DNA of 64,000 nt from Viridothelium virens (taxonomy: Eukaryota > Ascomycota > Dothideomycetes > Trypetheliales > Trypetheliaceae): contig ML991815.1 of the NCBI GenBank assembly GCA_010094025.1, forward strand, positions 124,001 through 188,000, read 5' to 3'. Position numbers and translations under genes: made by a program. Numbering within the stretch: position 1 is the stretch's first letter; each line of letters opens with the position of its first letter. Below are positions 17,400 to 44,706 of this stretch, one piece after another. The notes beneath the pieces are model-generated. The model was not told the origin of the DNA and searched no databases. It saw nothing but the letters and a program-made list of their open reading frames with translations.

Positions 17400-18551
17400 C
17401 TACAACTTCCCTGTTTCTCTCTCTAGCCTCTCTTCTCCCTCCCCCTCCCCCTCCCCCTCCAACCCCGTCTCAAAGTCCCCCAGAAACCGCCACCGCACCT
17501 CCTCACCCCAACCCCTCTCCCACCACGCATCCAGCCTCCGCGGAAAGAAATCCAGCACCCCCCTCAGCCACTCATCATGCGCCAGCACGACCAGCACCTC
17601 GGGCGCCGCGTCGAACTCCTTCAGCCCGTCGATCGTCCAGTTCGCCTGCGCCAGGTCGTGCGCGAGGTGCCGCGTCACTGTGTAGAAGGGCTGTGTTGCG
17701 CTGGCGGTTGCGTCTAGGTGGCAGCGGTGGAGGCGCTGGAACGCGGTTCCTGGGCAGGGAGAGGGAGAGAGGCGGGTGCTGGGTTGCGAGTGTGGGTGCA
17801 GGTGTAAGGTGGTGGGGAGGGGGAGATAGGACGTCGGTCGGAATTCGCCGCCGAGGTGGCAGGCGTCGCCTGCCATGAAGATGAAGGTGGGTGGGGTGGA
17901 GGTGGAGGTGGAGGAAGGAGGTGGAGAAGGGGTTGTGCGGGCGAGTCCGCAGAGGTGGCCGATGGTGTGGCCGGGGGTGGAGAGGAGATAGAAAGACCCG
18001 TCGCCGAAGTAGTCGAAGGCGTCGAAACGGCCGATTTTAAGGGGGTTGGGGGAGAAGGAGAGTTCGATGAGGGAACGGTTGGTGAAGTCAGAGTCGCGGA
18101 GGACGGAGTCGGGGTTCGTTGGATAGCCGGGAGTGTAGGTTTGCTTGAAGCCGGGGCCGACGATGACGGAAGTGCTAGATGGGAAGGTGGATGGGTCGCC
18201 AATATGGTCCCAGTGATGATGAGACCATACAATGGCTTCAACATCGGTGAGGGGTATATCGTTTTCGATGAGGATGTCCGATACGTTCTTCTCTACGGTG
18301 ACGGACCAACCCGCTTTTTGAATCATATTGACAATTTTTGGGGCCATGTTGGTCCAGTCTTTAGGCACACCAAGGTCGAAAAGGATCTTACGTTTTGAGG
18401 ATCCATTTGTGATTAAGAAGGAATAGGCCGGACAGGTGAGTTGAGTCTTTCCCGGAACATCTGGTTCGAAGAAGGGATACATTGGCATTTCGATCCATGT
18501 TGTACTGGAGGATAATTCAGTGAGCAGGACAACCTTAGCTACCTCTTCCAA
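17400..18551 (-). CDS. Metallo-beta-lactamase-fold hydrolase (lactonase-like)
   Basis: A single open frame of 383 codons contains the metal-binding motif HHHWDH (HxHxDH, about residues 111-116), the GHTIGHLCG block with a second metal His, and GDACHLGGE with the bridging Asp. This pattern fits the quorum-quenching-lactonase-like branch common in ascomycetes; substrate is unknown. The frame opens at a TTG (18551); no in-frame ATG lies upstream before a stop, the first internal one is at 18488, and an ATG at 18562 is out of frame, separated by what looks like an 11-bp duplication. The true start is therefore unsettled and may be in an unseen upstream exon. The C-terminal third lies in a skew island and is rich in Pro/Ser/Thr and then Glu/Gly (EGEGEGEGEE). 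Confidence 0.82.
   Translation of the reverse strand: MEEVAKVVLLTELSSSTTWIEMPMYPFFEPDVPGKTQLTCPAYSFLITNGSSKRKILFDLGVPKDWTNMAPKIVNMIQKAGWSVTVEKNVSDILIENDIPLTDVEAIVWSHHHWDHIGDPSTFPSSTSVIVGPGFKQTYTPGYPTNPDSVLRDSDFTNRSLIELSFSPNPLKIGRFDAFDYFGDGSFYLLSTPGHTIGHLCGLARTTPSPPPSSTSTSTPPTFIFMAGDACHLGGEFRPTSYLPLPTTLHLHPHSQPSTRLSPSPCPGTAFQRLHRCHLDATASATQPFYTVTRHLAHDLAQANWTIDGLKEFDAAPEVLVVLAHDEWLRGVLDFFPRRLDAWWERGWGEEVRWRFLGDFETGLEGEGEGEGEERLERETGKL
17401..18130. other. GC-skew switch island A
   Basis: On the + strand a C-rich half is followed by a G-rich half, with the switch near 17650. My hand count gives 122 C and 32 G in 17401-17640, against 33 C and 127 G in 17701-17940. A repeated CCCCTC run is seen at 17438-17460. 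It covers the 3' part of the minus-strand hydrolase gene. Confidence 0.85.
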
Positions 18552-18562
18552 ACCTCTTCCAT

Positions 18563-19689
18563 AGAATACACGATCTTCAGGAACAAATCTCGTCTATTCA
18601 ATGTGTGTTGGTGGGCTTAGAAACATCTAGTTTTAAGCTCTGTGGTTGGTGGATTGATGGATTCTTTCAGAGCTCTAGGATTGCTATAATAAAGGACCTG
18701 AAACGTACCTATCAATTATTGAGACGCTGACCGTAGCATCACTCTTGGGGATATTGAGAGGAGGAGCTGGTGTAGGCTCTACTAGGTAAGTAGATGATAA
18801 CATCCTCATGGAATAGAATATAGGGCGTCAACAGGACACTAGAGATAGTCTATCAGATATACCAAGTTACTCTGCTATCCAGAGCCAGTAGGTCTATCTT
18901 TGGTATTTTTGATCATACTGATGACGATATTTATGTTGTTGCTCTTAGCTATTCCCGAAAGGAGAGGGGTTTGCATATTATTAGTCGGGGGTAATTAGCG
19001 CTTGTACCTCCAAACTCAAATGACGATCTCTCGAGCATGATAATGTACGGATAAGGCTCTTCTATGATCTTTGTCAGCTGTTCCATATAACCTCTCCATA
19101 ATTCTCAAATTAGTAGTCAAGAACTCCGCGTGAATCTGCCGACCTCAAAGTATCGAATGCATCCAAGATCACTACGCCTTACAAAGGAATCCAGCTCATA
19201 TAAATGGAAACTCACGCTCAGCGAACTGTACTCTTCATGGGTTATTTCACACGGGGTTGACTCGAAGATCCGTACCTACTGTTGCTTATTGAGCCTTGAA
19301 AAGTTGTTGACTTCTTAATGAAATCTCAGAACAATTGCAACAGTCATATCTGGGCTATCAGACTATCGAACAGATGACCGAACCTGCTTTGATCGGCCGT
19401 AACAAGCAACGCAAGCCTCCCATAGTGACTGATATCATTAAGCTGATTGAGCGTGGCCATAAACATCTAGCAAAATCTACTGACTGCTGGGTTAGTACAA
19501 GTAGTCGCTACGGGGAAGACGCTTACCATTTGGGGATTTCCATTATGTAAAATCGGAATAAGTGCCGCTCAACGCAACTCATGATCATGACCGCGCCGAT
19601 AAATATGCAGTGAACATCAAGGCGTCCCTGAGCAATACAATACAAAGCCCAAAAATGGTCATACAAAAAAGAAGCTCGTCCCGATCAAT
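18563..19689. other. AT-rich gene-free stretch, 1.1 kb
   Basis: Lies between the hydrolase start and the Rab GTPase stop. It is clearly more AT-rich than the hydrolase 3' end. Short open frames on the + strand at 19130-19318 and 19335-19550 encode nothing I recognise. A decayed transposon is possible, but no terminal repeats or transposase motif are visible. Confidence 0.4.
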
Positions 19690-20674
19690 TCAGCAACATT
19701 TCCCCCCTTTCTTTCTCCTCAGGCTCTGCACTTCGGATTCTAGGCCATCAGTTGTTGTGGCCCCTGGAGTGATAGGAAATCCCAACCAGCTTCTTCTCCT
19801 GTCTCCATAGCCGACACGAAAGCTACCGTTGCCGCCATCAGGCAGGTCGAAGTATCCACCAGCATGGCCTTCACTTGCAGGCGTCATGCCCATGGCTTGG
19901 GCCTGCTGGATTTCCAGCTGTTGATTTCGTTGTTCGACCAGTTTTCTGGTAATGACACGGAAGACCTCCTCAACACCCTCTCCATCTCTTGCACTGATTT
20001 CATGACAGCAGTCCCATCCGATATCCTGGCCCCAGAAGCCACTACTTCGGTTGCTATGTGGTGATGCTATTGCCGTCGAAGATGCGGATGCGCTTGCGTT
20101 ACTAAAGCGATGCGGTAGCGAAGGTTGAGGTTGTTGCTGTTGTTGGGTTTGGCTGGGAAAAAGGTTCTCCGCCACGTATGCTATACATCTTTCGAAAGGA
20201 ACCATCCTCTTACTCGGATCCTCAGCCACAACATCGCTCTTGGTGCCTACTACATGCACAATCACGTCGTGTCCGAGGTTTTTCTTCAACTCGAGCAACC
20301 AGCGACCCATTTCAGCAAAGCTTTCGGAGTCCGTGATATCGTAGCATAAGACGGCGGCGTTAGCTCCACGGTAGTATAATTTGGAGATACTACGGAAGCG
20401 TTCCTGGCCGGCGGTATCCCATATTTGAAGTCGAACCACGGTCGAAGTGTCGATATCGATGACGCGTTTGGTCAAGAAGGAGGCGCCGATTGTAGAAGTC
20501 GTCGTTGGTGGTGTGAAGGTATTCTTGACATAGCGATGAACCAAGGAAGTCTTTCCCACGCCTGTAGGATGCTCATTATTATTTGTTATGCCTCTTGGAG
20601 GTCTTTACGGCGGACGATTTGATATTACCTTGCGAGCCGAGGACCACAATCTTGGCTTCGAGGCTGTTGCTCAT
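19690..20674 (-). CDS. Rab-family small GTPase with Gln/Ser-rich insertion
   Basis: Exon 1 (20674-20629) supplies MSNSLEAKIVVLGSQG and exon 2 (20561-19690) continues VGKTSLVHRY after a 67-bp intron (GTAATA..CAG), so the P-loop GSQGVGKTS is split by the intron. WDTAGQERF (G3) and GTKSD (G4) are present, and the protein ends in CC, the usual double-geranylgeranylation signal. At 305 aa it is about 100 residues longer than a standard Rab. The extra length is an insertion with QTQQQQQPQP and Ser/Ala runs (about residues 150-185) between G4 and the ISARDG G5 motif, plus a long C-terminal linker. It is closest in feel to the Rab24/Rab5-like branch; the trafficking step is not assignable. Confidence 0.9.
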
Positions 20675-21700
20675 TGTTGACCGGAGCGTGACGCAACGAT
20701 AGGAAGCGTCGCAAGATCAAAGAAAGGCTGGAACGGAGTAGAGCCGGAGGGCGCAACAAAACATCCGCTTGAGATACATTCGGGCTTGCGCGAGATGTCA
20801 GCGCGGCTTGAGACAAGCTCGCAAGCTGGATAGGGGGACTTTGGGGGTAGACGATTTGTTGAAATGTTTACATCGTTAAATGACGGAGCCTAAGCGGCAG
20901 GGATCATGCAGGTGTTGGCCGCACTTACGCACGTGCAGATAAGCTTAAAAACAGCTGTAGAAGTACCATGCAGTACTTCGTAAATAAGGCACCGAAGGTA
21001 TCATCAGTATAAAAAAGCTACGAGACATGATCTTCCTCTGTCTGCAACCAGCTTATTCGACTCTGGATGATCTGGATAGCAGTGGTAATGGCACCTGATC
21101 TTGGAGTGAAGGTGATTCACTTTCACTCATCATCTTCAGCAAGTCCAGAGTTTCCATTTCTTTTTGGAACATTGATTGGACCGACCCCTATCACCCTCTG
21201 ATGACTCTGCTTGTCAAATTTCTTATGGGAAAGCAGTCCATACTGGAAATTGTCGAGTTGCGGATTGCCCAAAAGAGATACCCCAACGGTGCCAACCACC
21301 GTTTTCGCATACACTAAAATAGGCGTCATGCTAAGCCGAGGCTCGTGCGAACTCCATCCGAAGAGGTTTGCCGGCCACCCCACCGTGCCCACTAACTATC
21401 GCGGCTCTGTTTTGTACCTACTAGATCCCGCCAGTTTCGTAGTGCATCATTATTGGCCTGTGGGGTAGACAGTGCAGTGCAGCGTATGTCTTCGCCATCT
21501 TCTCCATTGCCGGGTGACCGAGATCTGGGCACTCTTCCCGTCACCATTCATCTCTTAGCCGCGGATAACTTTGACTAATGCAAGAGTCTACCATTGTTTG
21601 ATCTTTTTGGTATCTTCAGATTCAATTGTTTCTCCATCTCTCTCTTTTTCCCTCTGTATTTTCCCTTGCTGTTTCATTGTTAGATTAATTTGTCTCCGCC
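20675..21700. promoter_or_regulatory. Divergent upstream region, 1.0 kb
   Basis: Lies between the Rab GTPase and the flavocytochrome gene. A pyrimidine-rich leader (about 21600-21690) directly precedes the flavocytochrome start. No coding sequence or defined site recognised. Confidence 0.5.
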
Positions 21701-23559
21701 ATGAATCGCGAAAGCAATAATACACAGAAGCAAAAGCTCACCGGGGAGCAAATTGCGGAGCATAACTCTCGCGAATCTTGCTGGGTTATCATACATGGCA
21801 AAGCTTACGACGTCACCGAATTCCTGCCTGAGCATCCTGGAGGCCCCAAAATCATTCTCAAGTATGCCGGCAAAGATGCTACGGAAGAGTACGAACCAAT
21901 CCACCCACCAGATACACTCGACAAGTATCTCGATAAGAGCAAGCATCTGGGCGAGGTGGATATGAGCACTGTTGAGAAGGAGGAGAAAGAGGAAGATCCA
22001 GATGAAGAGGAGCGGCAGAAGAGGATAGCAAAGATGCCCATACTCGAGCAATGCTACAATCTTATGGACTTTGAGGCGGTGGCGAAGAATATCATGAAGA
22101 AGACGGCTTGGGCATATTATTCAAGTGGCGCAGATGATGAAATAGTAAAGAATGTCCTTGCCTGAGTCTGCTTGACCAATGTTGACGGCCTTTCTAGACC
22201 ATGAGAGAAAACCATTCCGCCTTCCACAAGATCTGGTTTAGACCTCGGATCCTACAGAATGTCAAGGACATTGACTTCTCCACCTCGATGTTGGGGACCA
22301 AGGTCGACATGCCATTCTATGTCACGGCAACCGCATTGGGAAAACTGGGTAATCCCGAAGGAGAGGTTGTTCTGACGAGAGGCGCACGAAAGCACAACAT
22401 CATCCAGATGATCCCTACTCTGGCCTCATGTTCATTCGATGAGATTCGCGATGCTGCAGAGGAAGGACAGACGCAATGGCTTCAACTCTACGTATGCTAA
22501 GTTGAATCCACCTCTGTCTAGACTCCTTGCTCACATGAAATCTCCAGGTCAACTCAGATCGCAACATCACGAAACGCATCGTGGAACACGCAGAAAAGCG
22601 CGGCTGCAAAGGCCTCTTCATTACCGTCGATGCACCGGTACGCCTTCCCTCCTCCCACTTCCCTTCCTCCCTCTCCCTCTCCCTTTCCCTCCCCCTTCCC
22701 TCCAAACCTCCCTCCTTCGCTAATCTCCCCCTCAACACTATTAACAACTAACCCAACTCGACCCCCTCCCAGCAACTCGGCCGTCGCGAAAAAGACATGC
22801 GCTCCAAATTCTCCGACGTCGGCTCCAACGTGCAGAACTCGGGCGGCGACTCCGTCGACCGCAGCCAAGGCGCCGCACGCGCCATCTCCTCCTTCATCGA
22901 CCCCTCGCTGTCCTGGGACGACCTCCCCTGGTTCCGGTCGATCACGTCGATGCCGATCGTGCTGAAGGGCGTGCAGCGCGTCGAGGACGTCGTGCGCGCC
23001 ATCGAGTCCCGCTGTGTCCAGGGCGTCGTGCTGAGCAACCACGGTGGGCGCCAGCTTGACTTCGCAAGAAGCGGCTTGGAGGTCCTGGCGGAGGTGATGC
23101 CTGTGTTGAGGGAGCGTGGGTGGCAGGATCGGATTGAGATTTTTGTGGATGGCGGGGTGAGACGCGCGACGGACATTATTAAGGCGTTGTGCTTGGGGGC
23201 GAAGGGGGTGGGGATCGGCAGGCCGTTTTTGTATGCGATGAGTGCGTATGGGTTGGCTGGGGTGGATCGGGCGATGCAGGTGAGTTTGGAGATGCGGTCG
23301 TTCTCTATGGGTTGATGAGAGGTGTGCTGACGCAATGTGATAGCTCCTGAAGGACGAAATGGAAATGAATATGAGGTTGATCGGGTGTAGCAGCGTGGAC
23401 CAGCTTAACCCGACTATGGTGGATACCAGAGGTCTGAGCATGCACACCACCGGCGTTCCGAGCGATAACCTGTCGCTGTACAACTACGATCCTCTTGCGG
23501 GACCAAAGGAAAAGGCCGAGGATCCCAGAGGACAGGATGCACCCAAGTCGAAGCTTTAG
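21701..23559 (+). CDS. Cytochrome b5/FMN-dependent 2-hydroxyacid dehydrogenase (L-lactate dehydrogenase-like) with C-terminal SKL
   Basis: Five exons (21701-22144, 22198-22491, 22548-22637, 22773-23279, 23344-23559) give 516 aa. Residues about 10-90 form a cytochrome b5 domain with the haem signature EHPGGP. The rest is the FMN barrel: AWAYYSSGADDE, WLQLY, the flavin-contacting Lys in PIVLKGV, the catalytic His in LSNHGGRQLD, and the phosphate-binding GVGIGRPF. This is the architecture of yeast Cyb2, which oxidises L-lactate and passes electrons to cytochrome c. Unlike Cyb2 there is no mitochondrial presequence; the start is hydrophilic and the protein ends APKSKL, a canonical peroxisomal PTS1. 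Substrate may be lactate, glycolate or another 2-hydroxyacid. Intron 3 is a long polypyrimidine tract inside a skew island. Confidence 0.93.
22638..23290. other. GC-skew switch island B
   Basis: C-rich then G-rich on the + strand, switching near 22970. My hand count gives 81 C and 26 G in 22681-22860, against 23 C and 85 G in 23101-23280. It covers intron 3 and most of exon 4 of the plus-strand flavocytochrome gene. Confidence 0.8.
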
Positions 23560-23809
23560 GTCTATCATGTTTTTGTTTATGCACTGTATATACTGAACCA
23601 CTGTACATCCTGCCGCATAGATAAGTTGAATCTATTGGATAGTCCCATGTTGGGATGGTGCATCGGGATCCTCCAATGCAATTGTCTTGGGCATTTACAG
23701 TACGCCAGTCGCTATCCCTTCCAAAACTTTTTCGGTTCACCAAACAGTCCCGATTCCAATAACCTGCATTGCATAGCCTCATTCATCGTATTCTTCGGTA
23801 GCACGGGGT

Positions 23810-25770: not shown

Positions 25771-26540
25771 GATGGAAATTTAAAGCTATCTTGAGCTCTG
25801 CGGAACGTTATTTGTGCGGGGTGGGGTTTAGTAGCTATGCAAGGAAATGAGGCGGGACACTGTATAAGCCAGAGACGGTACGAGAGTTGTGAGCACGATG
25901 AAGTGTGAGCAGACGAGTGGGAGGGAAAGGTTGAACAGCAAGAAAGCTTAGAAGGCCACTAGGTTGAGCTGTCAGCCATACGTGGTAAGAAACCCCACAG
26001 CCCAACGCGGATGGCGGAGCTGCGGTCAGGAACCCCCCTGTGATGTCATTGGCTCTTCGACCTCATCAGTCAGGTCTGCAATGCGAGAAGGTTATCTAGC
26101 TTCTCCGATGATCGGTTGATAAGACCCGGGTATTCAATGCACGACACATTACACATCTTTTGAATGCTAGAGATAATTTCAGTGGAGATGAGCCGTCAGC
26201 TTTACGTAGGTGCGTAGTTCTGGCGGCCAAAGCTCCTCCAACTAGTGTTTCCCGTGGCTCCTCGGCCTCTCCTCGAGCTCCTTCCCCTGCAGCAACCGCG
26301 GAGAATCATTGTTCCCTATAAGCATTTCCACTTTCATGATCCTTGCCGATCGCGACTTCCTGCGAGTCCACTCTTCTACTTCACACATCGCCCTCCTGTG
26401 ATCTCCTCTTTCGCTACTTCTCAAGTGTACACAGTATCTGGATCGTCTTATTGTTTAAGCACGCCTTCAGTTCTCTCCCAAATTACGCACGACAACTCGA
26501 TCATAAGGCCATAGACTCCTAGGAATAATCATTCGCCAAA
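25771..26540. promoter_or_regulatory. Divergent promoter region, 770 bp
   Basis: Lies between the FGGY kinase and EMC10 genes. The EMC10 leader is pyrimidine-rich. No specific site assigned. Confidence 0.5.
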
Positions 26541-27192
26541 ATGCGCCTCCTCTCTGCTCTGTTCATTCTCTCCGCTCTTCCCTCGGCTCTTGCAGCTTCA
26601 ACATCTACAAAAGAAGATGTCAAAGTATACGCTTGGCCCATGTCCGAATCCAAGCCCCAGATTCTAGCCGAAATCACATACGATCCGCAATCGCTTACTG
26701 CCAGTACGAAGAAATATCATCAGCTCCAGTCAACTTCTTCCGAAGATCTGGTTCGAGTAGGTCTCTACGACCCCAAAACTACGGACTGGACTGGTGTCGT
26801 GACCTCAGGGTCACAATTCGAGAGTGACTATGCGAAGACCATTGTGCTCCATCTCGACCACGAGGGACGTCCGTTTCATGTCGGCTTCAGTGCATCAGTT
26901 CCATCAGAAGATAAGAAGAGTGGAGAAAAGATTATCCAAGGTTTCGACAGCTTAAAGGTGGTCTTGAAACCTCCGGTTCAGGGTCCTCAGCCCCATCTCA
27001 ATAAACCAGTCGTGTTGAATCCGGATGGGAAGGTTGACGAGAAGGAGCCGGAGAAGACATTCCTCCAGAAGTGCGTATGATGAAAGGCCTTTTTCGATCG
27101 CTTCGACACTGACTTGTGACAGGTATTGGTGGGTCCTTGCGTTATTCCTCGTCCTGCAGGTCGTGTCAGCAACCGGCGGCGGGGAAAAGTGA
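26541..27192 (+). CDS. ER membrane protein complex subunit 10 (EMC10-like)
   Basis: Exons 26541-27070 and 27123-27192, with a 52-bp intron (GTGCGT..CAG, phase 2), give 199 aa. An N-terminal signal peptide (MRLLSALFILSALPSALAA) is followed by a lumenal beta-sandwich-like domain and, in exon 2, a single C-terminal membrane helix (YWWVLALFLVLQVVSA). Size, topology and segments such as VGLYDPKTTDW fit fungal EMC10. The EMC inserts tail-anchored and multi-pass proteins into the ER membrane. Without the splice the frame ends before the membrane anchor, so exon 2 is needed to make sense of the protein. Confidence 0.82.
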
Positions 27193-27423
27193 TGGCGAAA
27201 ATTATTCTGTGATAGACAACGGGCCTCTAAAATATTCATTCTGCGTGTGGGCACACGTCCTCGTACTCTACAATGCGCGTCAGACTTTGCCTACTTCCCA
27301 CGAATTGACCCATAGATCTATCTCTCGTATTGGAGCACCTTATTTCTCCCGCCTCTTAGGTAAGCTATACTCGACTTTATGGCATTATATCCGTCTCTAA
27401 GATCAAAAAGTTGCGTAACAAAA

Positions 27424-28041
27424 ATGCCCAAGAACAAGTGGTCAGCCGCAATTGGCAATGGAAAAAGCACTCGAGTCTCCGGACCAAACGTCGCACCCAA
27501 CAGTCTTGTCAAAATCAGCGACGTTGGATTTCAGCCTGCAAAAGCAGCGACCTATTATCTCTGTCGTGGGCACAGCATCACGAAAGTCGATGGCACTCCC
27601 TTGGCCATCATCAATCGCCACCTAGACGGCACATTTGCACTCGCCGAGGACCGCCGTCCACGCCCACCGCGCCTCATCGTCAACAACGGAGCTGTCTTCC
27701 TGGCAAGTAGCGGGATAGTGCTGAATCCTGCTGAGGCTCTCCTCGTCCATCAACACGGTCAAAAGATATGGAACCTTGATGGCCGCCAGCTCGGCGTGGT
27801 CATGACAGAATATGGGCGACGCTTCTGCTACGAGGAGTCTGAAACTGATCCTCATTCGACGGCCGATCTGGATCGTGAGTTTGGTGGAATTGATGTCCGT
27901 AGGTACACGAGGCTAATCTCGTGGTAACAAGGCTTCCTTCTCGCGTATCGTGTCGATGGCACCCCGTTTGCCGTTTATTATCCAAAGCAGGCACAAGAGG
28001 TGCTGAGCGGAACAGGTAGAACAGGTCACAGATCCGGTTGA
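27424..28041 (+). CDS. Unrecognised small protein with duplicated VDGTP motif
   Basis: The ATG at 27424 opens a frame that would end at 27927, but a good GTGAGT donor at 27875 and an AAG acceptor at 27931 join it to a second exon 27932-28041, giving 186 aa. Support for the splice: exon 2 reads FLLAYRVDGTPFAVYYP, an echo of KVDGTPLAIINRH in exon 1, so the protein seems to contain an internal repeat. I know of no family with this pattern. There is no signal peptide or membrane segment. It sits between EMC10 and the 3' end of Utp21 on the + strand. Confidence 0.55.
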
Positions 28042-28371
28042 GGGCCTCCCCGATCACAAGCGTGGCTTTGGGTGCCGTGTGCGAAGTTTTCCCTTTATCT
28101 TCAGTAATGCAATGAATCATCAAAGACACTTTAGAAATTTGAATTTCCACTGTTGGTTACGATGGTATGCTTGAGCTAGCCTTATATGCCTATGGCCTAA
28201 ATTCCTCCTCACAGCAAGTTCGCCTTAAGGAACCTCTGGCACCTTTGCAACCGTTTTGTAAAAGGAATGCTCTCTATCTTGCAAGTCAACATCCCAGGTC
28301 GCACCCCAAGCCCAATCAAATCCCTTCATCCCCACCCCCCTCCCCACTCTTCCAACCCCTCCACCACATTC
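28042..28371. other. Intergenic, 330 bp, between convergent genes
   Basis: Holds 3' regions only. From about 28290 it is almost pure C/A/T on the + strand, the left edge of skew island C. Confidence 0.5.
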
Positions 28372-28990
28372 TCACACCCCCCTTAAAAACCCCACCACCC
28401 CAGCACAACTCCCCACCAACCCCCTCAACCGCACCATCTCCCCCGCCAACACCCCCCTCCACTCCCCCACCGCCTCTGCAACCCGTTCCTCGCGCACCAC
28501 CGCGTCGGCATGGATCCTCAGAAACGCCGCCATCCACGCCTGGCCGAGCTCGAAGTCGGCCGAGCCCCGCAGCTGCGCCGTGAGCGCCTGGACGAAGGCG
28601 ACGAGTTCGGTCGCCGGGGAGCTGGGGTCGAGGGTGCGGAGGGCGAGGTCGAGCGAGGAGGGCGGGAGCGCCTTGAGGTGCGTGAGGAGCGGGGTGTGCG
28701 TGTTGGTTGTGTAGGAGGTGTGCAGGAGGGTGGTGAGGGTTGAGGGTTCGGGTGCGTGGTTGAGTTTGGTGAGGTGGCGGGATTTGGTGTCTGAGGTGGT
28801 GGTGGAGGAGGGAGCGTCGTTGGGGACGGAGGTGGAGGAGGGGTTGGAGGTGGAAGGGAGAGAGGGGAGGAAGAAGGGCGCGCTTTTGGGGCGTTGGGGG
28901 GGTTCTTTGGGTTTGTTGCGGGCGCGGATGAGGTCGAGGTGGAGGATGGTCTGCCAGCGGGCTTTGGGCACGAGGCTGAGGGTGATCATG
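28290..28990. other. GC-skew switch island C
   Basis: C-rich then G-rich on the + strand, switching near 28530. My hand count gives 110 C and 8 G in 28321-28500, against 18 C and 100 G in 28621-28800. It covers the C-terminal coding part and 3' flank of the minus-strand Utp21 gene. Confidence 0.88.
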
Positions 28991-31697
28991 TCGTCGCTGA
29001 GTTGGTCGATGGAGGGGACCGCAGTCTCGGAATGGGCATCGGTCGCAGGCTCTTCTAGAGTAGCTGCTACGATGCTTTGGCCTCCTTCGCCGGATGTGGT
29101 AGGGGCGTCGAGTTCGGCCATTTCTCCTTCCTCGATTGGTCGAGTCGGAACTTGTGTGAAAAGAGTGCGGTTTGTCCACAAGTCGATACCAAGGCTATCT
29201 TCGCATGCTGTTGCAAAATATTCGCCGGTATTGGAAAAGGCGATTGCGGTACATTTGCTTCGGAGTCTGCTGGCATCGATGAGATGACCTGTCGGTAGAT
29301 CCCAGACACGTACGACCGAGTCAGCACAGGCAGCGACAATCCATCGACCATCGCTGGAGAAACAGAAATCGGTTATGGTTGAAAAGGACGTTGAGAGCTC
29401 TCGAACTACTCTTTGGGTCTGCAGATCAATGACAGCGATAGAGCCGTCATTACAAGCAACGGCGATGAGATCACTAGGTCGATGGTAGCGTAAGCTCACG
29501 ATGGTTCTTCCAACGGCAGCGAAGTCAATCTCATGAATGAGCAGTCCTGTCGCAAAATCCCAGAACTAGACCTGGGTCAGTAAATTCCTAATGAGACAGA
29601 TAAGATTAGACTGGACCTTGAACTTGCCGTCCGACCCACAGCTTATTACGGTGTGATTTAGATTGTCGATAACGAGGCCGGTCACCGCCGAAGTATGTTT
29701 CCCTTGGCCCTTTTTGTACTTCTTTTTGTGGTTAGGGTCCACTTCTTTTTCAAGGCTGTCCTCAGTCTGCAGCTGTTGGAGGCGCAGTTGCTTTGCTTGA
29801 AGTGGTGTGAGCGGTGCAGGAAATCTTTGGCGATGCATGCCGGATTGCAGGTTGAACATATCGATGCTACCACCGGCCGAACCCACAAGCGCAAATGTGC
29901 CACAAGGCGACATGGCGACGCTCTGAAGAAGTATTAGTATTCTGTAAGCAGCGAGACTTAAAGTAACAGTACCGTAACGTTGGAGCTGTCGCTAGTTGGA
30001 AAAGCCCAACGTCCAGCTCTCTTTCTGCCCCAGAACCACGTACGAGCGAATCTATTGCCTTCATGGCCCGTCACGACACTTTCCCATCCTGTCGCACTGC
30101 TGTCGGCAGCATTCGATTTGCTTGCGCCCTTAGAATTACTCGTCTTGTTCCAGATAGCCTGCGAGCCAGGTAATGCCCCAATGCCGCCGTCACGATTCAG
30201 GCTGCTTGCCATACATGTAATTTTAGGCGCCTTCAGACTTTCTGGACCGTGACCCCCAGAGCCATGACCAAACAAGCCGCGTTTCTTTGCCTTTGCCTGG
30301 ACATTGCCCTGGCTTAATTCGGTGCTTTGTCCATCACGACGTAGACTCCACCCCCACAAACTTCGGTCCTCACTGCCGCTTAGCAGCCATTTACCATTTG
30401 CTTCCGTTCCTTCGGATTCAGGAGGTAGAAACTGCAGAGCAGAGACCGGACCAGCGTGACCAGCTCGCATGTGGAGGATACGTGGGATTGGAGAGAATGA
30501 CGTTTCGTCAAAGATCCAAGATTTCAACGCATTATCGAGACCACTCGTGACAAGAATCGCTTGACCAGGCAAGAACTCCATTTTATTGATACCTCCTGAA
30601 ATGCCTTCCGCAGTGTTGACTGGAGCGTTATGAGCAGCCGGAAGTACACCAGTTCTTCTTCCTCCCGAATTAAGATCCCAAAAGGTTATATCTCCACTAC
30701 TATGACTGGAAGTTGCCATTGCACCCGAATGTCGGCCGTCTTCCCCTGCACCAAGACCGTCTGTGCGAAATGAAATCGAGGAGATTGGAGCGCCTTGAGT
30801 GACGGACCTAAGCCTAATGACTTCTTTATCATGCCGCATATCATGAACGATGAGCGGTCCGTTTTCGTAGGCGATGGCTAGTAGGGAAAGGGCGGGAGTA
30901 GGTTGAATTGCTGTCACTGCCCCATAGTTCGATGCAGCTGGCAAGATGGTATAAATGAGTTTATTGCTACTCAAATTCCATATTTCCACAGTCCCATCCT
31001 CTCGTCCAGCAAGTATCTTATTCAAATAGGTGGGCATGTTACATATACCTCCGGTGATACGCCTGCTCAACCCATTGGGGCCTGAATATGGCGGTACCAG
31101 GGTTGTATAGTGCTCAAGCGTATTCGACTTCCATACCTCGATGCGAGTGGAACAGCAGCCCACAATCCAGGTTCCGAATATGAGAAATTGTTTGACATTT
31201 TCTGGGGAGCCATGAATGTCTTCGAGTTCAGCCACCTTTTTACCTCTGGAATAGACCCATACCCCGCGGGCAGACGATGCCTGACTTCCACCCCAAGCCG
31301 CGATGACTTTGTCCTGCCATGCCTTGGTCGCTGTGATGGGCTCGGGGGTTTGCGGTCTTGTAATGAAGACGAGATTTAAGCCGCGACGTAGATCATAGGT
31401 GTGTAGACTGCGGCCGACACTGGTGGTGACCTGAAAAGTTGTCTTGCCCAGAGGAAGTACGGTGAAAGGAACATCGGTCGGAGATACCAAGCCTACCGTC
31501 TAATCATGTCAGGATAGGTCGTAAGAGTGTGCAGGGAGGGATGCACGTACTCGAAATGGAGCAAATATTTTCGAGGGTTTGGATGCAGGCCGAGTCTCGG
31601 CAAGGTCATGATGCGCTGCAAGTTTGATTCTCTTGGTCGTCTGCCGGCCATGAACTTGGTCTCGTGGGGGTGAGAGAAGGTGAGGCATCACGATCAT
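28372..31697 (-). CDS. utp21: U3 snoRNP / SSU processome WD-repeat protein Utp21 (WDR36)
   Basis: Four exons, 31697-31551, 31499-29973, 29922-29617 and 29565-28372, all phase 0, give 1057 aa. Two stacked WD40 propellers occupy about residues 40-760 with repeats such as ILAGREDGTVEIWNLSSNKLIYTI, ILVTSGLDNALKSWIFD and VVRVWDLPTGHLIDAS. The C-terminal Utp21 domain includes AVPSIDQLSDDMITLSLVPKARWQTILHLDLI. A Lys-rich insert (HKKKYKKGQGK) lies between the propellers. Utp21 acts in the UTP-B module in early 18S rRNA processing. The last about 130 residues are compositionally odd because they fall in a skew island. Divergent with Vip1 over 287 bp; an in-frame ATG at 31688 is an equally good start. 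Confidence 0.95.
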
Positions 31698-36590: not shown

Positions 36591-37296
36591 TACCTGCAGA
36601 TACAGTATTCATTGGGAGGCTTTTGTGTAGCATTCACATCGGCGTTTTGCACGCATCTACATTAACATGAGCTACCAGACAATCTGGTCTCGGCTCTACT
36701 GACGCAGCATTTTCCTCCATGAGCAGTTATCTATAGAGTACCTCATATATACCACTAGAAGCATAGCGAATCAAATATTAGTTGTGATACAGTTGTATGC
36801 ATGTCATATCTCGAATGACGCCGTCACCATTAGGATGGAGGCTTTTCTGATCAAACGCTAATAAAGCTTCGAGAAACACGTCCGTTCTGCACCACCAGTT
36901 AGACCACCCGAGGAGCTCAAACCGTTTCTTTGGGTCGCTACGGGATACACCAAACGACCTGATGTAAAGAGGATCTATCTTTCAGACTCTTTGATAACTC
37001 GATCCTGCCAGTGGACTCCCTTAGCATTAGACTCTCACCCTTTATACTGCACGGTTTTCTCCATGCTACGGTCTATCGTCAGTATACTAATAGTGAGGAT
37101 TTGAGAACTACATTTCGCCGCGTATGCTTTTATTGTTGTAAGAGACCTTCAAAGTTAACGAGTACCCGTGTATGGAATGGTATCGTCAATCCTATATCAA
37201 CATCAAGTCATTTCCAAAAGAACGCCATCCAAGCCACTTCAACCAAAAAAAGCTCTACCAAAACCCCAACAAAAGCAGCATCCACGCTCCATCTCG
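36591..37296. other. Intergenic, 706 bp, between convergent genes
   Basis: 3' flanks of Vip1 and the kinesin. AT-rich until about 37150, then C-rich into island D. No gene recognised. Confidence 0.5.
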
Positions 37297-38170
37297 CTAC
37301 GGACTCTCCAACCCCATCTCCTCCAATCCCCACTTCTTCGCCTTCAACGCCCTGACCTTCTTCCCCTTCACCGGACTCCCCACCAACCTCTCCCGTTCCA
37401 ACCCCTCCACCCTCCCCCTCAACCGCTCATTCTCCGCTTCCAACTCTCGCATCCTCTCCTCCACCCTCGGCTCCGGATCCTCATACACCTGCACCCCTCC
37501 ATCCTCCCCCTCCCCCTCTCCGCCTACCTCCTCAATATCCATCCCCTCCTCAATCCCCCTTGTCAGAATCTCCAGCTTGGCGTCCCACCGCGCGTCGCTC
37601 CGCCCGCTCTCCTCCGCCCACGCCCCCATCCACCGCGCCCGCTCCGCCGCAACCCGGTGCTCCATCTCGTCCGCGCACTCCTCGCGCACGCTCGCCTCGA
37701 GCTCCGCGAGCTGCGCCGTTGCGGCCGTCCAGGAGTGCTCTGCGGCGCGGCGCCGTTGCGTCTCCTCTGCGAGCTGGACGTGCGCGATGTCGAGGTCGTC
37801 GGTGAGGCGCGCGATGGCTTGTTGTAGAGCTGCGAGTTCTTCGGCGTTAGATGATGATGACGAGGAGGAGGTGTTGGTGGTGGGGGAGTTGCGACCGCTG
37901 CGTTGGAGGGATAGTGGGGTGGTGCCCGAGAGGATGGTGCTGGTGACGGATGGGATGCGGGGCACTGTCACCTCGCGGGCGAGGGCGGAGTAGCGAAGGA
38001 TTTGGGAGGTGGCATTGAAATCGCCGATGGGGTCCGCGGTGACGATCATGATGGCTTTTTGGGGGGCGCGGTGGGAGGGGCGGCGGAGGTGGTGGGGGTG
38101 GTGGTTCGTGTTGGTGGAGATGGAGGGGAAGGAGTTAGAGAAGAGAAGTTCGGTGAGTTTGCATTGGCGG
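37220..38170. other. GC-skew switch island D
   Basis: C-rich then G-rich on the + strand, switching near 37700. My hand count gives 134 C and 15 G in 37321-37560, against 38 C and 113 G in 37801-38040. It covers the last exon of the minus-strand kinesin gene. Confidence 0.88.
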
Positions 38171-39738
38171 AAGGGGACGACGCTTTGCTGTGCTCAGGAG
38201 TCAGATATCTGGGTCGACTGATTAAGCTGTGAAAGAAGTGGTACCTTGTTGCCGTCCTGGTTGTCGCTCTGCAGTTGCATACACTGGCCAAGGTACATCA
38301 AGCTTTCATTTATTTTCCCAGCTTCGGCGAGTGTTGCGCCCGCAGTTCTGGCATTTCGTGCGCGCTCAGAGCCTTTCGATCTATTAGCTGATTCCATATC
38401 TTCCAGGAAACACCCGTCTAGTTACCTGCTAGATCAACGACCGTCAATGTGCTCCCACTCCACGGCCCTTTTGTTGCTTTGTCTCGCTTCTTTACCTCTA
38501 CGCAGAAAAAGCCATGACTTCGCGAGCTCACAGCATTGCTTCCTGTACCTGCAACCTTTCTTTCCATGAGTCCTGTCTCTAGAACCATGATTGCTTCCTC
38601 GAAGCTACCGCATATGACCTTCTTTAAGCCCGCAACAACTTTCCTGTCGGGGGATTGTTCTGTCGATTTGAAAAGTAAAGCCCTGCGCCTTTGTAGTCCA
38701 GCCTTCAGCTGTCCAGAACTGCCTCCTAGGAGATCAAATATCCGGTCATTGTAGACCTCATACATCGAGACGATGATCGCATACTCAGCTGATTTGTCGG
38801 AGCGCAACTGGACATTGGGGACGGTGGGGATCTGGGGTAATCCGGATGGACGAGGTATGTGCCGCTTTGGTAAGGTAATGTACGAGCTCGAATCCTTTAT
38901 TGTCGGAAAAACCTCCTTGTTAGCAAATGACGTTGTTTTCAAGGTCCATCCTAGTGCCGCTTCGGCGTTTGAGATGAAATCATATCGGCGGGATTCAGTA
39001 TTGGTCTTGGAAGGAGATTGATTGTCCTGTACAGAAAGTGCCGGATACAAATTACGTGAGGAGATATGGAAAGGTACATTGAATTTGTTTGGTGGAATTG
39101 GTTGTGTCGATTGTTTGCCTACCAGAAGGGGGGTGGTCGCTCGCGAGTGTCCACGCTCAGACTGTCCATCTCCGTAAATGCTGTCCAGAAAAGTGGATGC
39201 TGGAGTAACGAAGGCTTCAGATACATCTGCGGCATCGAGAGAAGCAAAAGTGGTGGGTTCATCCGAACGTTCAATCAAATGGTCGGCCACTGCATTGTAT
39301 AGCACATCAAGAGAGAGCTGTATTAAACCACGCTGACTTTTGGATCCAAGAATGGTATGAGTCTAATCTATTAGCACATTCCATCAGATCTCCAAGATTG
39401 CATACTTTTCCCGAGCCTGTGACGCCTAATGTTGCCACCAGTGCATCCCGTCCTTCTCTTCGCTCAGATCCCAAGACGCCTTCAATAAGTGGCAGCACTC
39501 CTGTTCCTTCGAAGACCTCTAGCTGAGTAGCTTCTTCCTCGAAAACTCTTGTGAAGGCGAATCTCTCGACAGCCCGTTTGCGGAAATCCGAGGCGGGAGG
39601 TTTGATGGTAATGTGGGTGGGATTGATGGGTTCGCCATGTTCAACTTCCAGAAATCGTTGTAATCCAGCGCCGGCGGGTAGTCGCAGTCGCAAATAGACT
39701 TCGAACAGAGAGCTCGCTGGTCTCGAAGGTTTCTCCAT
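37297..39738 (-). CDS. Kinesin motor protein, kinesin-6 (Klp9/KIF20-type) like
   Basis: Four exons, 39738-39406, 39362-38426, 38372-38245 and 38187-37297, give 762 aa. Spliced sequence restores the P-loop GVTGSGKTHTILGSKS across intron 1 and switch II VVDLAGSERA across intron 2; switch I is seen as NAVSSRSHGFFCVEV and the neck-proximal motif as VPFRQCKLTELLFSNSF. An insertion of roughly 130 residues precedes YEVYNDRIFDLL, a feature of kinesin-6 motors, which slide spindle microtubules in anaphase or act at cytokinesis; class is therefore probable, not certain. After the N-terminal motor comes a predicted coiled coil (ALQQAIARLTDDLDIAHVQLAEE and further). That C-terminal half lies in a skew island and is rich in Ala, Arg, Glu and Gly. 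Confidence 0.9.
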
Positions 39739-40026
39739 TTCGAGCTTCGAAAAATTTGATCGGAGGGTCCTGGTCAAAAACGATGCTGGGTGTTGTTTTC
39801 AAAGGTAAACAATCAGGGCGGGGCAACCGAGCCAATCGTGCAGCGCTCGCACCCTCGAAAAACGCTCCGCACCGTGCGCACCTTCCCACGCGCCTGATCA
39901 TCGCATTTCCCATGATCTAGTAATCTCATTGGAGAAATCGACGGTTTGAAAGAGCATTGGCTCGGTCAACGAGGATTGTTCGATCGCGCACATAAAAAAG
40001 AAAAAAAGCAATTTGCCCAAAATCTT

Positions 40027-42274
40027 CTACTCTGGCGCGATTTCATCAAAACATTGGCAATCACCGGCGTCTCCTCCGCGTCTGCTCCCACTCAGAAGAG
40101 TAGGACATTTCCATGCGATGTCCATGTCGGAGCACTGGAGCAATGTGGACCATAGACGCTCCATGGTGTAGCCGAAATAAGGAGCATTCATTGAGTCCGG
40201 CCTTCCTTGAAGATACTTTTGTTGATGTGCCCAACTCTCGGGATCCACCAGGGCTTGACGCAATTCCTCGTATACTTTTCTTTCAACGCCGCGAATGCGC
40301 TGGGCCGAAGCAATGAACTGCCCTTTGTAAGATAGAAGCATTGGACCACAACTCAATTTATTGGCATCTTTGTAGACATCAAGAAGCACACCAGATGTGT
40401 CAGACCATCCCCAGCGGTCTCCGCAATTTCGGCAATCACACACATTCCCACTGAATCCAAGACTTAGCATTCCAGTATTGAACTTGAAATAATCTCGGAC
40501 ACGTGGATAGAACTCTCGGGGATTGTGGATGTCGGCTTGCATGAATAGAGTGTGCTCCGCAAGATTGTCCCAGTGGCGAAGAACATGGTGAAGATAAGTT
40601 TCAGATTCTCGACCTTCATTTGGAAGCTTGATAACCTCAAAAGCACCCAAGGCTTGCTGCAATTGTGAGGCCTCGGCATCTTCATCCTTTGTGTATACGA
40701 TGACTCTTGGAGATGTTTTCGCGATGACATCAATCTGAGTGATCCTAGAGATGACGGAGGAAACAGAAGTCTTGGATTCCCGGTACATACTGATGACAAT
40801 ATCAAGCTGCGATGACGGCTGGTAGTCGAGATCTAATGATGGCCGTGGCATCTCCAACCTTCTCCCTGAAGTAGGTAAGAAGTTTGCTTGCATGTAGGTT
40901 GCCCAACTGCTTAATCCCACGACCAGCAATACGATGGTGATGGAACGAGTGAGCGTGCTGGCCTGGAGGTCTCGCTTGGGAATTCGATGATTTAATACAT
41001 CTCCATTCGTTCTCTCGAGTGGACCCGGCCGTCCTCTGGCAGAATCATGATTTGGCAGGCTGTAGTACTCCACGTTCACCTGCTCACCACGGGCAATACT
41101 CTCATTACTACTTGCCGTAGGGCCATACAAAGACCTCCCCACAATCATGCGAAGGATCCAGTTATCTGCAAGTCCGCAAATTCCAATAATGTATACCACA
41201 GCTTGCAGCCAAGTAGTGTATCCGCGCTGACATGCAAAGTTTGAGAGCCACGCAGCTATGCCGGACCTTGCGCAGTCCAGGGCAAGACGCAGGAATGAAG
41301 GAAATCCAGAGAACGAGGCGTTCGATGAATCATTCAGATCCTCCAGAGACGTTTCAACTGAACCACCTAATATGAGAGAGATGGCCCCGGTGGCAATGGC
41401 GAAAGCAAATACTGGGTAGAATTGCGAAGAGGCTGAGGTTTGGGGTATATGTGAGAACTCAAAAGCGTATGAGCAAGTGGCTAAGACAGGCGCATTTAGT
41501 ATCATAGCCAATACGACAATATTCCTTCCAGAAGAATAGCAATTGTTTTGGCTCGCAGTCCCTGTCGTTTCGTTTCCATAACCACGGGAAGCCTTTGCGA
41601 TTCGGGAGAAGACAAGCGCTAGGACTCCAAAAATCAGTCCGTTGACCGTAAGCCGGTAATCATCGTAAAGCACAAGGCCAACAGTAAGCATGGAAAACAA
41701 TGTATAGACGGCAATATCCTTTGGGATACCTCTGTTGTGGATCAAGAAAGCGAAGAAGGTTTCAAGAGGCACTAGCAAAGGCTGCAGCGTGTTAGTAGCC
41801 TCGATTAAAAATGTATTGGAGGGAACCCACAGCAAGCATTAGTAGAGTGACGATATTCGGAAAGTGCAGGATAGCCTGCGAGTAAAGAATGAGGGACAGG
41901 CTCAGAAGTACAGCAGCAGGGACTAATGGAATGCTTTTGGAATGGAATAGAGAATCAATGATCTCAGTGCGTGCCAGTAAGGGTCGAAGACGAGAAGGGA
42001 AGGCAGTGAAGACCCATTGCGGTGCAACATGTGGGAAGATTATCATGAGTAATGCTGCGATTTCCTGTAAAGCCAGGAGACGGAATGGAAAATGAAAGTT
42101 TTGTTGCTCAAAGAGGTTTTTGCTTGATACCACAGCCATCGCAGCCATCGGTGGCCAAAGGAACGTCTTGGTCCAAGAGGGTCGAGTCCGTATCGGTGAA
42201 GACAGGTTGTCGGTGAGCTGCAAAGACGACGGGCTTTGGGTTCCATCCTGATCCTCGGATACGTGCGTCGCCAT
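40027..42274 (-). CDS. Multi-pass membrane protein: transporter-like N-terminus fused to DUF3431 domain
   Basis: Exons 42274-41831 and 41781-40027 (intron GTGGGT..CAG with a perfect GCTACTAAC branch site, phase 0) give 732 aa. Residues about 25-310 hold around nine to ten hydrophobic segments, arranged like a drug/metabolite or nucleotide-sugar transporter (VLYDDYRLTVNGLIFGVLALVFSRIAKAS is typical). After a linker and one more membrane helix (about 385-405), residues about 435-700 form a DUF3431 domain with DIVISMYRE at its start, LFMQADIHNP, and the Cys pair CDCRNCGDRWGW. DUF3431 proteins look glycosyltransferase-like. Exon 2 runs unbroken through both parts, so the fusion is not a gene-model artefact. 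Likely in the Golgi or ER; the reaction is unknown. Confidence 0.83.
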
Positions 42275-42735
42275 TTTCAAGGCTAATAAGGTATGTATCT
42301 AGCACATAGCAGAAAAGCTCCCCAAAAAAACTATATTCTAAAAAGCGCAAAAGGCGTAAAGTTCATCGTGGCTCTCAACTGTTGACCTCTGACGTACATC
42401 ACATATTTGTCTCAAATGTCATAGACGCGCTCTGTGTGTGATACAAAATCATAAGGCGAATATTCAGGCTTGTCTTTCGCTTAGAAAAAAGAGATGTGTT
42501 GTGATGGAAGATGGACTCGAGACTAGGACTCGAAGGACTCGAAGGGCTCGAAGGACTCTTATGTAAGCGACCATCTAGTCATTGATGCTCCCAAAGCGGA
42601 AGTCGTTCCCTTTGACGCGTTGTTTGATGACCCCGACGAAAAGAGCTGAAGCCCATGTCGTCCATCTCGTTACCTTCACGGCGCTCTCATTAGCATTAGT
42701 TTTCTATTGCTAGACCTGTTGTCTAAATACCTGCG
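42275..42735. promoter_or_regulatory. Divergent promoter region, 461 bp, with minisatellite
   Basis: Between the DUF3431 gene and the F-box gene. Contains a short 9-bp tandem repeat (listed separately). No other site assigned. Confidence 0.5.
42512..42560 (+). repeat. 9-bp tandem repeat, AGGACTCGA
   Basis: Units at 42525-42533, 42534-42542, 42543-42551 and 42552-42560 (last degraded), plus a related ggactcga just before. The repeat sits in the divergent promoter. Confidence 0.8.
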
Positions 42736-44706
42736 ATGGTGTTGCAATTACCTGTCGATATCCTGCACCTCATTTGCAATGAATTATCCAATCAGATCGA
42801 TTTTGACACGCTCTATAATTGCGCGCAAACCAATAAGCAGCTAGCTATACCAGCGCTCACAAGCCTTTATAGGTAAGCAACGGCACGAGCTAATCCTTGA
42901 AAGAAAGAATTTCTTCTGACATGCTCGAAAAGCATTGCTCACCATTCCAATTTCTCGGACGCGGCAAGCAACGCATTTATTCCACATCAGGAAACTCTAC
43001 TTCAAAAATGGGCAATATTATGGCGAAGTATTATTCTCTCCAGCTTAGATAGAACATACTTCATCTACTGCCGATATCTGCGAGAACTGGATCTCAACGA
43101 CCTGGGACAATTATTTGAAGCTGATAAGTTCAGAACCAAGATTGAGAAGTATGCTCTCCCAAAGGCATTCTGTCGATCGTCAACTTAGAGAAATCCAGGA
43201 AATTTTTTGAAGGAGAGCTTTCGAAACTGCGCATTCTCTCGAATACTGCGCGTCCGAATACCGAGCGTCTTGATATCAATGCCGTCACAAATCGAGTCGG
43301 AGACGGTATGCTAAACTATCAGCGTAGTGACTACGGCTGATAGCAAGTAGTGGTGACAGAAAAGGCTCCCCTTCTGGAAGCTATTTCTAGCAACAGTGGT
43401 TTAGGTAGGTAGGAACTCTACTTCATAGGCTCTTTTCTAATAGTGCCAGACTCGTCGAGTGCCCTCAGGAAATGGATTCCCATGCTCAGCAAGTTGCAGG
43501 AGCTCAAGCTATTCAATGGCAAGACGTTAGCTGACCCTGCCATCCCGGAATTGATAACCGCGCATTGCCCTTTCTTTCGCCGACTCTGGATCTTCCTTTG
43601 GTATGCGTTCTAGCACTCTGAAACCAACGAGTGATCCTGACAATACCGTAGGGTTACTCCTGAATCCGACCACCAACTCGCCACCTTCATCCAAGGCATT
43701 CCCACTCCGACCCTCCATTCCCTCCAAATCTTCAGCGCCAACGGCATCGGCGCCGAATCCTTTCTCGGCTTAAACCACCACGCTCCAACCCTCAAACTCC
43801 TCCGCCTCTCCGCCAAGCCAGCACACCTCGCCCTCCTCTCCTCCTGCACACAAATCGAAACGCTCATCCTCGAAGACCCCACCGGCACCTCCGACCTCGA
43901 GCACGACGACCCCTCCGCCTTCGCCACCATCGCCAGCTGGCTGCAATCCTGCCACTACCTGCGCGTCCTCGAATTCAACAAGTTCCCCCCGGCCGCCGCT
44001 CTCATCACGCCCGCGCTTCTCTCACCAGCCCCCGATAACAGCAACAATAGCGACGATACCCGCGCGCTGCCCCACCTCCACAGGCTGCAAGTCGAAGGCT
44101 ACGCAATGCGCCATGCGTCCGCGCGCGCCTTCCACGAAGCGCTCGCGCACCAGCGGGGGCTGCGGACGCTGGTGCTGAAGGGCGACGCGGAAGGCAGCGG
44201 GCGCGCCGATTGCGACGCGCTGTGCGAGGCGGTGGGGGCGATCGGGGGTCTGCGCGACCTGAAGCTGCGGGGGGTGTCGGAGTTCTTCGCGAACGAGCAC
44301 GTCAGCTATTTGGCGGGGAACCTGCCGGAGCTGGAGCACCTGTATGTCGAGGGGTGGGCGATTGGCGACGGGGTGTGGGGCGCGCTCGGCGGGCTGCGCA
44401 AGCTGCAGTGGATTTCGTTTATGGGGCTGACGCAGTTTACGAGGGAGGGGTTGATGGGGTTTGTGAGGAGGTTGAGGCGGCCCGGGAATGAGGGGATTGT
44501 GGTCATGGTGGATAATGCGGATTTGGAGGGGCGGTTGTCGGAGGAGGAGCAGGCGGAGGTGAGGGAGGCGATTTTGGAGAGGGTGGATGGGAGGTTTGAG
44601 TATACGCTGTATAGAGGTAGGTTGACGAGGAATGCGAACTTCTTACAGGACCAAGCTGATTTTCGTAGATCCCGACTTATCGGAGTTCGAGGGTGAATCG
44701 GATTGA
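42736..44706 (+). CDS. F-box / leucine-rich-repeat-like protein
   Basis: Seven exons (42736-42872, 42933-43148, 43199-43305, 43351-43404, 43444-43600, 43652-44616, 44669-44706), each junction frame-consistent, give 557 aa. It starts MVLQLPVDILHLICNEL, an F-box-like helix pair, then WAILWRSIILSSLDRTYFIYCRYLRELDLNDL, a segment typical of a large ascomycete F-box family. LRR-like strands (LHSLQIFSANGIG, HLHRLQVEGYAM, LRDLKLRGVSEFF) follow. The last exon replaces a read-through end with DPDLSEFEGESD. Presumably a substrate adaptor of an SCF ubiquitin ligase; target unknown. Exon 4 is only 54 nt. Most of exon 6 lies in skew island E, which explains its switch from C- to G-ending codons. Confidence 0.78.
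43660..44610. other. GC-skew switch island E
   Basis: C-rich then G-rich on the + strand, switching near 44150. My hand count gives 116 C and 32 G in 43681-43920, against 30 C and 120 G in 44341-44580. It covers exon 6 of the plus-strand F-box gene. Confidence 0.85.

Follow-up and report, generated by a model that had tools for sequence, protein, structure and literature searches.

Human constitutive replication origins carry a mutational footprint, described by Murat et al. 2022, and this is the closest known counterpart of the subject of this report: five GC-rich islands in a 64,000-nucleotide stretch (the window) of the genome of the dothideomycete fungus Viridothelium virens (GenBank assembly GCA_010094025.1, contig ML991815.1, positions 124,001 to 188,000), each of which switches abruptly from a C-rich to a G-rich arm on the plus strand. 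At the human origins, in the part of that report available to us, mutagenesis is concentrated in about 1 kb. T>G, C>G and T>C changes are in excess there, together with some C>A, and the strand biases change sign at the origin; fed into an in silico model, these biases yield a rise in GC, skews, CpG islands and G-quadruplexes (PMC9645720). The five islands, which we designate A to E, likewise span about 1 kb and show a GC rise, CpG richness, G-quadruplex motifs, skews (a strand excess of G over C or the reverse) and a strand bias in composition that inverts. However, the human signal is averaged over thousands of origins, as far as the available text goes, whereas here it is seen at single loci, and the skews pooled over the five islands reach -0.77 and +0.61; moreover the islands lie in 3' coding sequence near convergent gene ends, in an ascomycete, and are candidate origins.

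Other described systems share individual traits. A change of skew sign at a point is common to the islands and the origins of ascomycete yeasts (PMC3459929), and an intragenic position is common to the islands and the recombination hotspots of Zymoseptoria tritici, to judge by the accessible portion of PMC5844332. With meiotic hotspots that undergo GC-biased conversion the islands share a GC peak that falls away over hundreds of base pairs. CpG-island promoters with R-loops carry a C-to-G switch around a CpG-rich centre, and the islands have this switch too, although their centres are inside 3' coding sequence and away from the starts of open reading frames (ORFs). In the literature searched, from which subscription papers were mostly absent, we found no description of a strand-specific drive toward G at such sites in fungi; in the portions at hand, the only mention of GC skew in PMC3111534 concerns dispensable chromosomes, and PMC7403616 uses the term for GC-biased evolution and not for strand skew. 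Searches of viral and prokaryote contig collections with three window proteins as queries returned no relatives, a result that is uninformative for fungi. The islands are akin to known skew switches, yet differ from each of them in amplitude, polarity, reach or place.

Composition of the five islands

A matched filter for the change in G minus C, taking 450 bp per side and run over all 64 kb, ranks the switches of D (37707, score 13.4), C (28568, 13.2), A (17663, 12.7), E (44151, 11.1) and B (22948, 9.6) as the five strongest C-to-G changes, and the sixth scores 5.3 only. The largest absolute z across 100 dinucleotide shuffles is 4.82, and among the 54,277 positions whose filter spans are clear of the islands the maxima are 5.30 (at 38808) for C-to-G and 6.07 (at 26226) for G-to-C changes; the ten strongest G-to-C peaks of the filter are shoulders of the five islands themselves. 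The islands are 0.7–1.0 kb long and have a GC content of 0.617–0.658 compared with 0.497 elsewhere in the window. Counted over 250 bp per side, the bases change from C127/G32 to C48/G119 in A, C108/G46 to C55/G102 in B, C137/G26 to C38/G132 in C, C135/G40 to C51/G113 in D and C112/G54 to C61/G119 in E. The first-pass annotation, which had described five GC-rich islands with an abrupt C-to-G switch, is therefore borne out by the filter scores, and its hand counts, over spans that it left unstated, were of similar magnitude to our recount. It had also given the islands the same plus orientation. All five are indeed C-to-G and none is G-to-C, but a C-to-G switch reads as C-to-G on the other strand too, so that each island has two arms and no direction, and no orientation can be assigned to it.

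When the five islands are pooled, GC enrichment is centred on the switch within the span of about 1 kb and peaks at 0.72. To the left of the centre C rises to 0.55 and G falls to 0.07, while to the right G rises to 0.54 and C falls to 0.11; the skew has its minimum of -0.77 on the left and its maximum of +0.61 on the right, and across the switch the share of keto bases (G+T) climbs from about 0.30 to about 0.70. A tanh fit of the flip gives a width parameter of 60 bp, the best in a grid of eight values, and the composition is back at baseline some 500–550 bp from the centre. A flip as sharp as this with a return to baseline at that distance therefore points to a process with a fixed centre and a limited reach. 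The observed/expected ratio of CpG is 1.25–1.43 at the centre, although the ratio is noisy and distant single 50-bp bins reach 1.38.

Codon third positions sorted by degeneracy, read as plus-strand bases and pooled over the islands, tell us which bases are in excess. In the left arm C occupies 132 of 146 C/T sites and 193 of 256 fourfold sites, and A occupies 38 of 59 A/G sites; in the right arm G is found at 157 of 168 A/G sites and 326 of 467 fourfold sites, and T at 52 of 91 C/T sites, against a background in which two-fold sites are 47–53% either way. Fourfold sites on the outward-running strand have more G than each other base. In the outer arms the two-fold sites run contrary to a preference for GC, with T at 37 of 45 C/T sites between 200 and 500 bp on the right and A at 21 of 24 A/G sites between -500 and -200 bp on the left, so that AT-to-GC changes are not favoured on both strands alike. 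Near the centre (0–100 bp) the GC preference prevails, with C at 20 of 24 C/T sites. Two effects act here: the outward strand favours G and T, and GC is favoured as well, most strongly at the centre. The pooled purine share goes from a low of 0.22 on the left to a high of 0.68 on the right, and because of this shift, together with the excess of G over all three other bases at fourfold sites, transitions alone are insufficient and a transition-only (deamination) model was rejected.

Coding and noncoding sequence within the islands

The signal is carried to a large extent by codon third positions, and islands A and D encode low-complexity runs, as would suit selection on codons or proteins, whether through codon bias or low-complexity segments. 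Synonymous codons were either redrawn from background codon usage or permuted within an island, with 500 trials each and ten tests over the five islands, and in each of the ten the observed switch was reached in 0 of 500 trials. After the synonymous redraw the mean score is still 5.2–7.8, or 47–66% of that observed, a remainder that counts for coding selection and against the origin reading set out below, although it is left because the amino acids and the noncoding pieces are kept as they are. The same bias is found in noncoding DNA. The bias of all eight noncoding pieces is in the expected direction, and it is clear in five, namely the putative first intron of the B host and the 3' flanks of A and C on the left and the putative second B intron on the right (base counts in Table 1), and a flank on the left of D (C40/G14). 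The lean is weak in the piece just right of D (G22/C13), at the right end of E (G25/C16) and in a piece to the left of E that is outside its segment (C13/G11). The ten tests and the noncoding pieces led us to reject a coding explanation, and the two hosts with solved relatives, Utp21 and cytochrome b2, keep their domains; we consider selection of this kind very improbable. That coding direction does not explain the switches had been claimed beforehand on the ground that two host ORFs are on the plus strand (B and E) and three on the minus strand (A, C and D), which matches the ORF list. The claim holds up at degenerate sites, in the synonymous tests and in the noncoding pieces, and the signal persists under control for codon usage, as shuffled or redrawn synonymous codons never match the observed switch. 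The five-island pattern is real and strong, and it is not ordinary codon bias.

The amino-acid composition follows the DNA composition in the islands. Pro, Ser, Thr, His and Leu together make up 0.48 of the residues in the C-rich coding arms (728 residues), 0.18 in the G-rich arms (548 residues) and 0.31 in a background of 7338 residues from 19 ORFs, and the corresponding shares of Gly, Glu, Val, Arg, Ala and Trp are 0.25, 0.59 and 0.34. When the Utp21 encoded at island C is aligned with its solved counterpart, 0.60 of the 172 aligned residues outside the island are identical, against 0.44 of 160 and 0.52 of 61 in the two arms; the commonest new residues are Ser and Thr in the C-rich coding arm and Ala, Gly and Val in the other. 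The lower identity in the arms could have an alternative cause in looser constraint on that part of the protein. Pfam and PDB matches still identify the Utp21 and FMN_dh domains.

The likeness of the islands in size and shape, and the presence of a common 9-mer at four of the centres, might be expected of five insertions of a mobile element or dispersed repeat. Masked blastn between the islands (E up to 0.01), however, gives a single 20-bp match between different islands, and in the 28 rows of the unmasked comparison the longest among the matches listed is one of 67 bp (76%) between C and D. The unmasked matches are probably shared pyrimidine or purine runs. In the two hosts compared the islands fall inside conserved domains and leave them uninterrupted. 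A repeat element was rejected on the blastn comparison and seems to us scarcely credible. Tandem purine/pyrimidine repeats are present in the arms of A, B and C (17890–17926, 22644–22703 and 28332–28380), and these short repeats suggest that slippage adds to the bias.

Because of the fixed centre, the mirror arms and the independence from codon choice, we favour synthesis or repair running outward from one point. Probably it is an outward DNA-level process from a fixed start, and not coding selection, that gave rise to the islands.

Gene context and sequence features

Our own gene map, drawn from ORFs and Pfam matches and incomplete over the last 17 kb, places all five island centres within an ORF or gene towards its 3' end, about 190–610 bp ahead of the stop, and on this map every host faces a convergent neighbour. 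Five of the six convergent junctions have an island and no other junction does; with counts entered by hand, the chance of such a pattern is 3.9e-4 over 20 junctions and 0.0047 over the 13 that include the 3' end of a gene. Weak points of the map are the plus-strand neighbours of C (26529–27080 and 27364–27927) and the host ORF of E, none of which has a Pfam match. The gene content of the window resembles that of a filamentous ascomycete: Pfam matches are to HET, AAA, Na/Ca exchanger, FMN dehydrogenase (cytochrome b2), FGGY kinase, Utp21, the N-terminal domain of PPIP5K with a histidine phosphatase (VIP1 type), kinesin, PPR, DEAD helicase and Rad9, and we read the AAA-domain gene as that of proteasome Rpt6. 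The best PDB match of Utp21, 5oql, is presumably a Chaetomium entry. The features are collected in Table 1, in which island limits come from a best-fit segmentation and intron limits from our reading of splice sites.

Table 1. Islands, host genes and associated features, in window positions
Feature	Position	Strand	Remarks
Island A	17311..18200	.	C-rich arm to ~17640, then G-rich; segmentation and filter
Island A host gene		minus	metallo-beta-lactamase-fold protein; Pfam Lactamase_B 1.1e-8
Island A noncoding 3' flank	17311..17399	.	C45 G4
CTCGCGCAC in island A	17658..17666	-	at centre; candidate motif, lead only
Island B	22616..23325	.	switch ~22945; segmentation
Island B host gene		plus	L-lactate dehydrogenase (cytochrome b2); FMN_dh 9.8e-51; best PDB match cytochrome b2 (1kbj)
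Island B host intron (putative)	22638..22772	+	noncoding, C-rich arm; C74 G5 A21 T35
Island B host second intron (putative)	23280..23344	+	within and just beyond G-rich arm; G25 C8
CGCGCAC near island B centre	22992..22998	-	shorter, weaker form of the centre word; this 7-mer has 15 copies in the window
Island C	28286..29045	.	switch ~28560; segmentation
Island C host gene		minus	Utp21; Utp21 domain 3.9e-67; PDB 5oql_O 4.1e-127
Island C noncoding 3' flank	28286..28371	.	C47 G4
CTCGCGCAC in island C	28489..28497	+	near centre; lead only
Island D	37172..38175	.	switch ~37710; segmentation start 37276, A/C-rich skirt back to 37172
Island D host		minus	read as 3' part of a kinesin gene; ORF 37297-38193 without Pfam match
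ORF upstream of island D ORF	38418-39362		kinesin motor match; one gene with 37297-38193 in our reading
CTCGCGCAC in island D	37681..37689	+	at centre; lead only
Island E	43671..44630	.	switch ~44150; host ORF plus, no Pfam match
CTCGCGCAC in island E	44142..44150	+	at centre; lead only

The word CTCGCGCAC has four copies in the 64 kb, all of them within about 100 bp of the switch of A, C, D or E; by our frame reading it encodes Leu-Ala-His in A and E and Val-Arg-Glu in C and D. Among 2000 dinucleotide shuffles there were 7 with a 9-mer common to at least four of the five centres (±120 bp), and among 2000 codon redraws there were 17; the corresponding counts are 177 and 140 for an 8-mer in at least four centres and 183 and 141 for a 7-mer in all five. 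With one mismatch allowed the word has 21 sites, a number attained in 5 of 100 shuffles, against an expectation of 13.9. As the word was picked post hoc, with nulls uncorrected for word length and window choice, we treat it as a centre motif in the sense of a lead only. The window has 12 clusters of G3+ quadruplex motifs. Five are outside the island arms, and the seven inside them are without exception on the outgoing strand: on the plus strand at 28616, 28728 and 28888 in the right arm of C, and on the minus strand at 17466, 22700, 28345 and 37418 in the left arms of A, B, C and D respectively, with none in E.

The centre of island E (44120–44203) is an imperfect palindrome of 84 bp with 70.6% identity to its own reverse complement (E 2.8e-4). 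In the convergent gap after E, at about 44840–44900 on the minus strand, there is a sequence that by eye resembles the 3' part of a tRNA, for which ARAGORN and Rfam return nothing; these programs found no tRNA and no RNA family, respectively, in the window. A further region at 50000–52700 has a GC content of about 0.57–0.63 and is mostly G-rich on the plus strand but has no switch, and it adjoins a minus-strand ORF for a Pro/Ser/Gln-rich protein.

Proposed replication initiation and its alternatives

We tentatively propose that each island may be the long-term footprint of outward synthesis from a fixed replication origin, a reading that our analysis makes plausible though not probable. DNA synthesis would restart repeatedly at one fixed point, which would be an origin firing at a fixed site, and would run outward for about 450 bp on each side. 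Just after initiation, when breaks would also arise at the centre, synthesis would be prone to errors and would leave T>G, C>G and T>C changes with a strand bias in the first few hundred bases per side; ordinary synthesis would resume further out. Convergent transcription that pushes loaded MCM helicases would account for sites near convergent 3' ends. Replication initiation is placed first because the islands come closest to the human constitutive origins, to which can be added, from the portions of the two reports available to us, the bias of late origins in Saccharomyces cerevisiae to convergent intergenes (PMC4176565) and the sliding of MCM double hexamers upon collision with transcription (PMC5007759). 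A fixed bidirectional origin had also been suggested in the first-pass annotation, and the part of that suggestion that calls for a two-way process fits the 60-bp flip and the mirror arms; the skew matches the local footprint of initiation at human constitutive origins, but its polarity is not simply the one to be expected in an ascomycete, and it ends at about 500 bp.

These last two points lead a series of observations that weigh against an origin. In three ascomycete yeasts, among them S. cerevisiae and Kluyveromyces lactis, it is A and C that are enriched on the leading strand (PMC3459929), whereas the outward strand of the islands is G- and T-rich, which is the opposite polarity. A fork skew should moreover continue along the path of the fork, and that of the islands ends at about 500 bp. 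No fork-scale switch is found at 0.65–2.6 kb, where the intergenic GC skew is -0.061 on the left and -0.027 on the right; the coding half of this comparison is uninformative, with 32 co-directional fourfold sites only, because the flanking coding sequence over the same distance would be met head-on by outgoing forks at 1547 of 1579 fourfold sites. All five centres are inside ORFs and not in intergenes, one convergent pair (7893 / 8242–8761) is without an island, and a spacing of 5–9 kb, with five in 64 kb, is in our judgement dense for origins. The strand bias does invert at the island centre, but the underlying base changes are deduced from composition only, and a bias as near to saturation as that of the A/G sites of the right arm (93% G) is hard to reach by mutation alone.

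The islands could also mark hidden bidirectional promoters, one at each centre, with R-loops making the outgoing non-template strands G-rich. Both the polarity and the CpG-rich centre are as in CpG-island promoters, and 7 of the 12 quadruplex clusters are in the arms on the outgoing strand; however, the five centres are positioned shortly before stop codons and not at ORF starts, and the transcription predicted from the gene map converges at the centres and should leave a switch of the reverse polarity, so that divergent transcription is in our view improbable. Meiotic hotspots offer another explanation, in which fixed breaks with GC-biased conversion at the centre are joined by strand-asymmetric heteroduplex repair or end synthesis that makes the arms, and in which a slight bias would be driven toward saturation by a large population size. 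The GC content, highest at the centre and declining over a few hundred base pairs, is consistent with this, and a near-saturated bias is reached more easily by a drive so amplified. The genome of Z. tritici is about 40 Mb. With 78 islands per Mb, a figure from one window chosen for having islands, the density is comparable to that of the hotspots in this species, which in the accessible part of the report number 2578, with 1435 in exons (PMC5844332).

That same portion of the Zymoseptoria report, however, indicates almost no GC-biased conversion (PMC5844332), and the islands are in coding DNA near convergent ends, where breaks are rare in S. cerevisiae: according to the part of PMC3020949 at hand, they are practically excluded from coding sequence and almost so from intergenes with two terminators. 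The strand asymmetry of human meiotic breaks, at which C>N and A>N changes are on the forward strand where that strand is the resected single strand (PMC7615360, in the section available), predicts a polarity opposite to that of the islands. The outer arms, where T is preferred to C, also speak against a GC bias. Plain GC-biased conversion is unlike the islands because it is strand-symmetric and unable to favour T over C. We regard meiotic hotspots as the main rival of the origin reading, possible but rather unlikely. A break-centred, strand-asymmetric process had been named beforehand as the second option, and it is still viable, as is the origin, although one window does not permit a firm choice of either.

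Whether it is replication initiation or repair that operates there, the islands resemble the scar of synthesis or repair restarting at the same points, apparently strong enough to shift the encoded proteins. In its most specific form, which we put forward with some doubt, the islands would be start sites of about 1 kb, placed by sequence near convergent gene ends and perhaps marked by CTCGCGCAC, at which a strand-specific drive to G on the outgoing strands reshapes coding sequence and proteins. In filamentous fungi it is hard, in our judgement, to locate origins or recombination start sites by sequence; if the islands mark such start sites, they would be readable from the genome at a precision of about 100 bp and could be compared between species. 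To ignore the process that makes the islands would mislead analyses of codon bias, selection and domains in such genes, and if the interpretation is true it would mean that a neutral DNA process can be strong enough to alter proteins.

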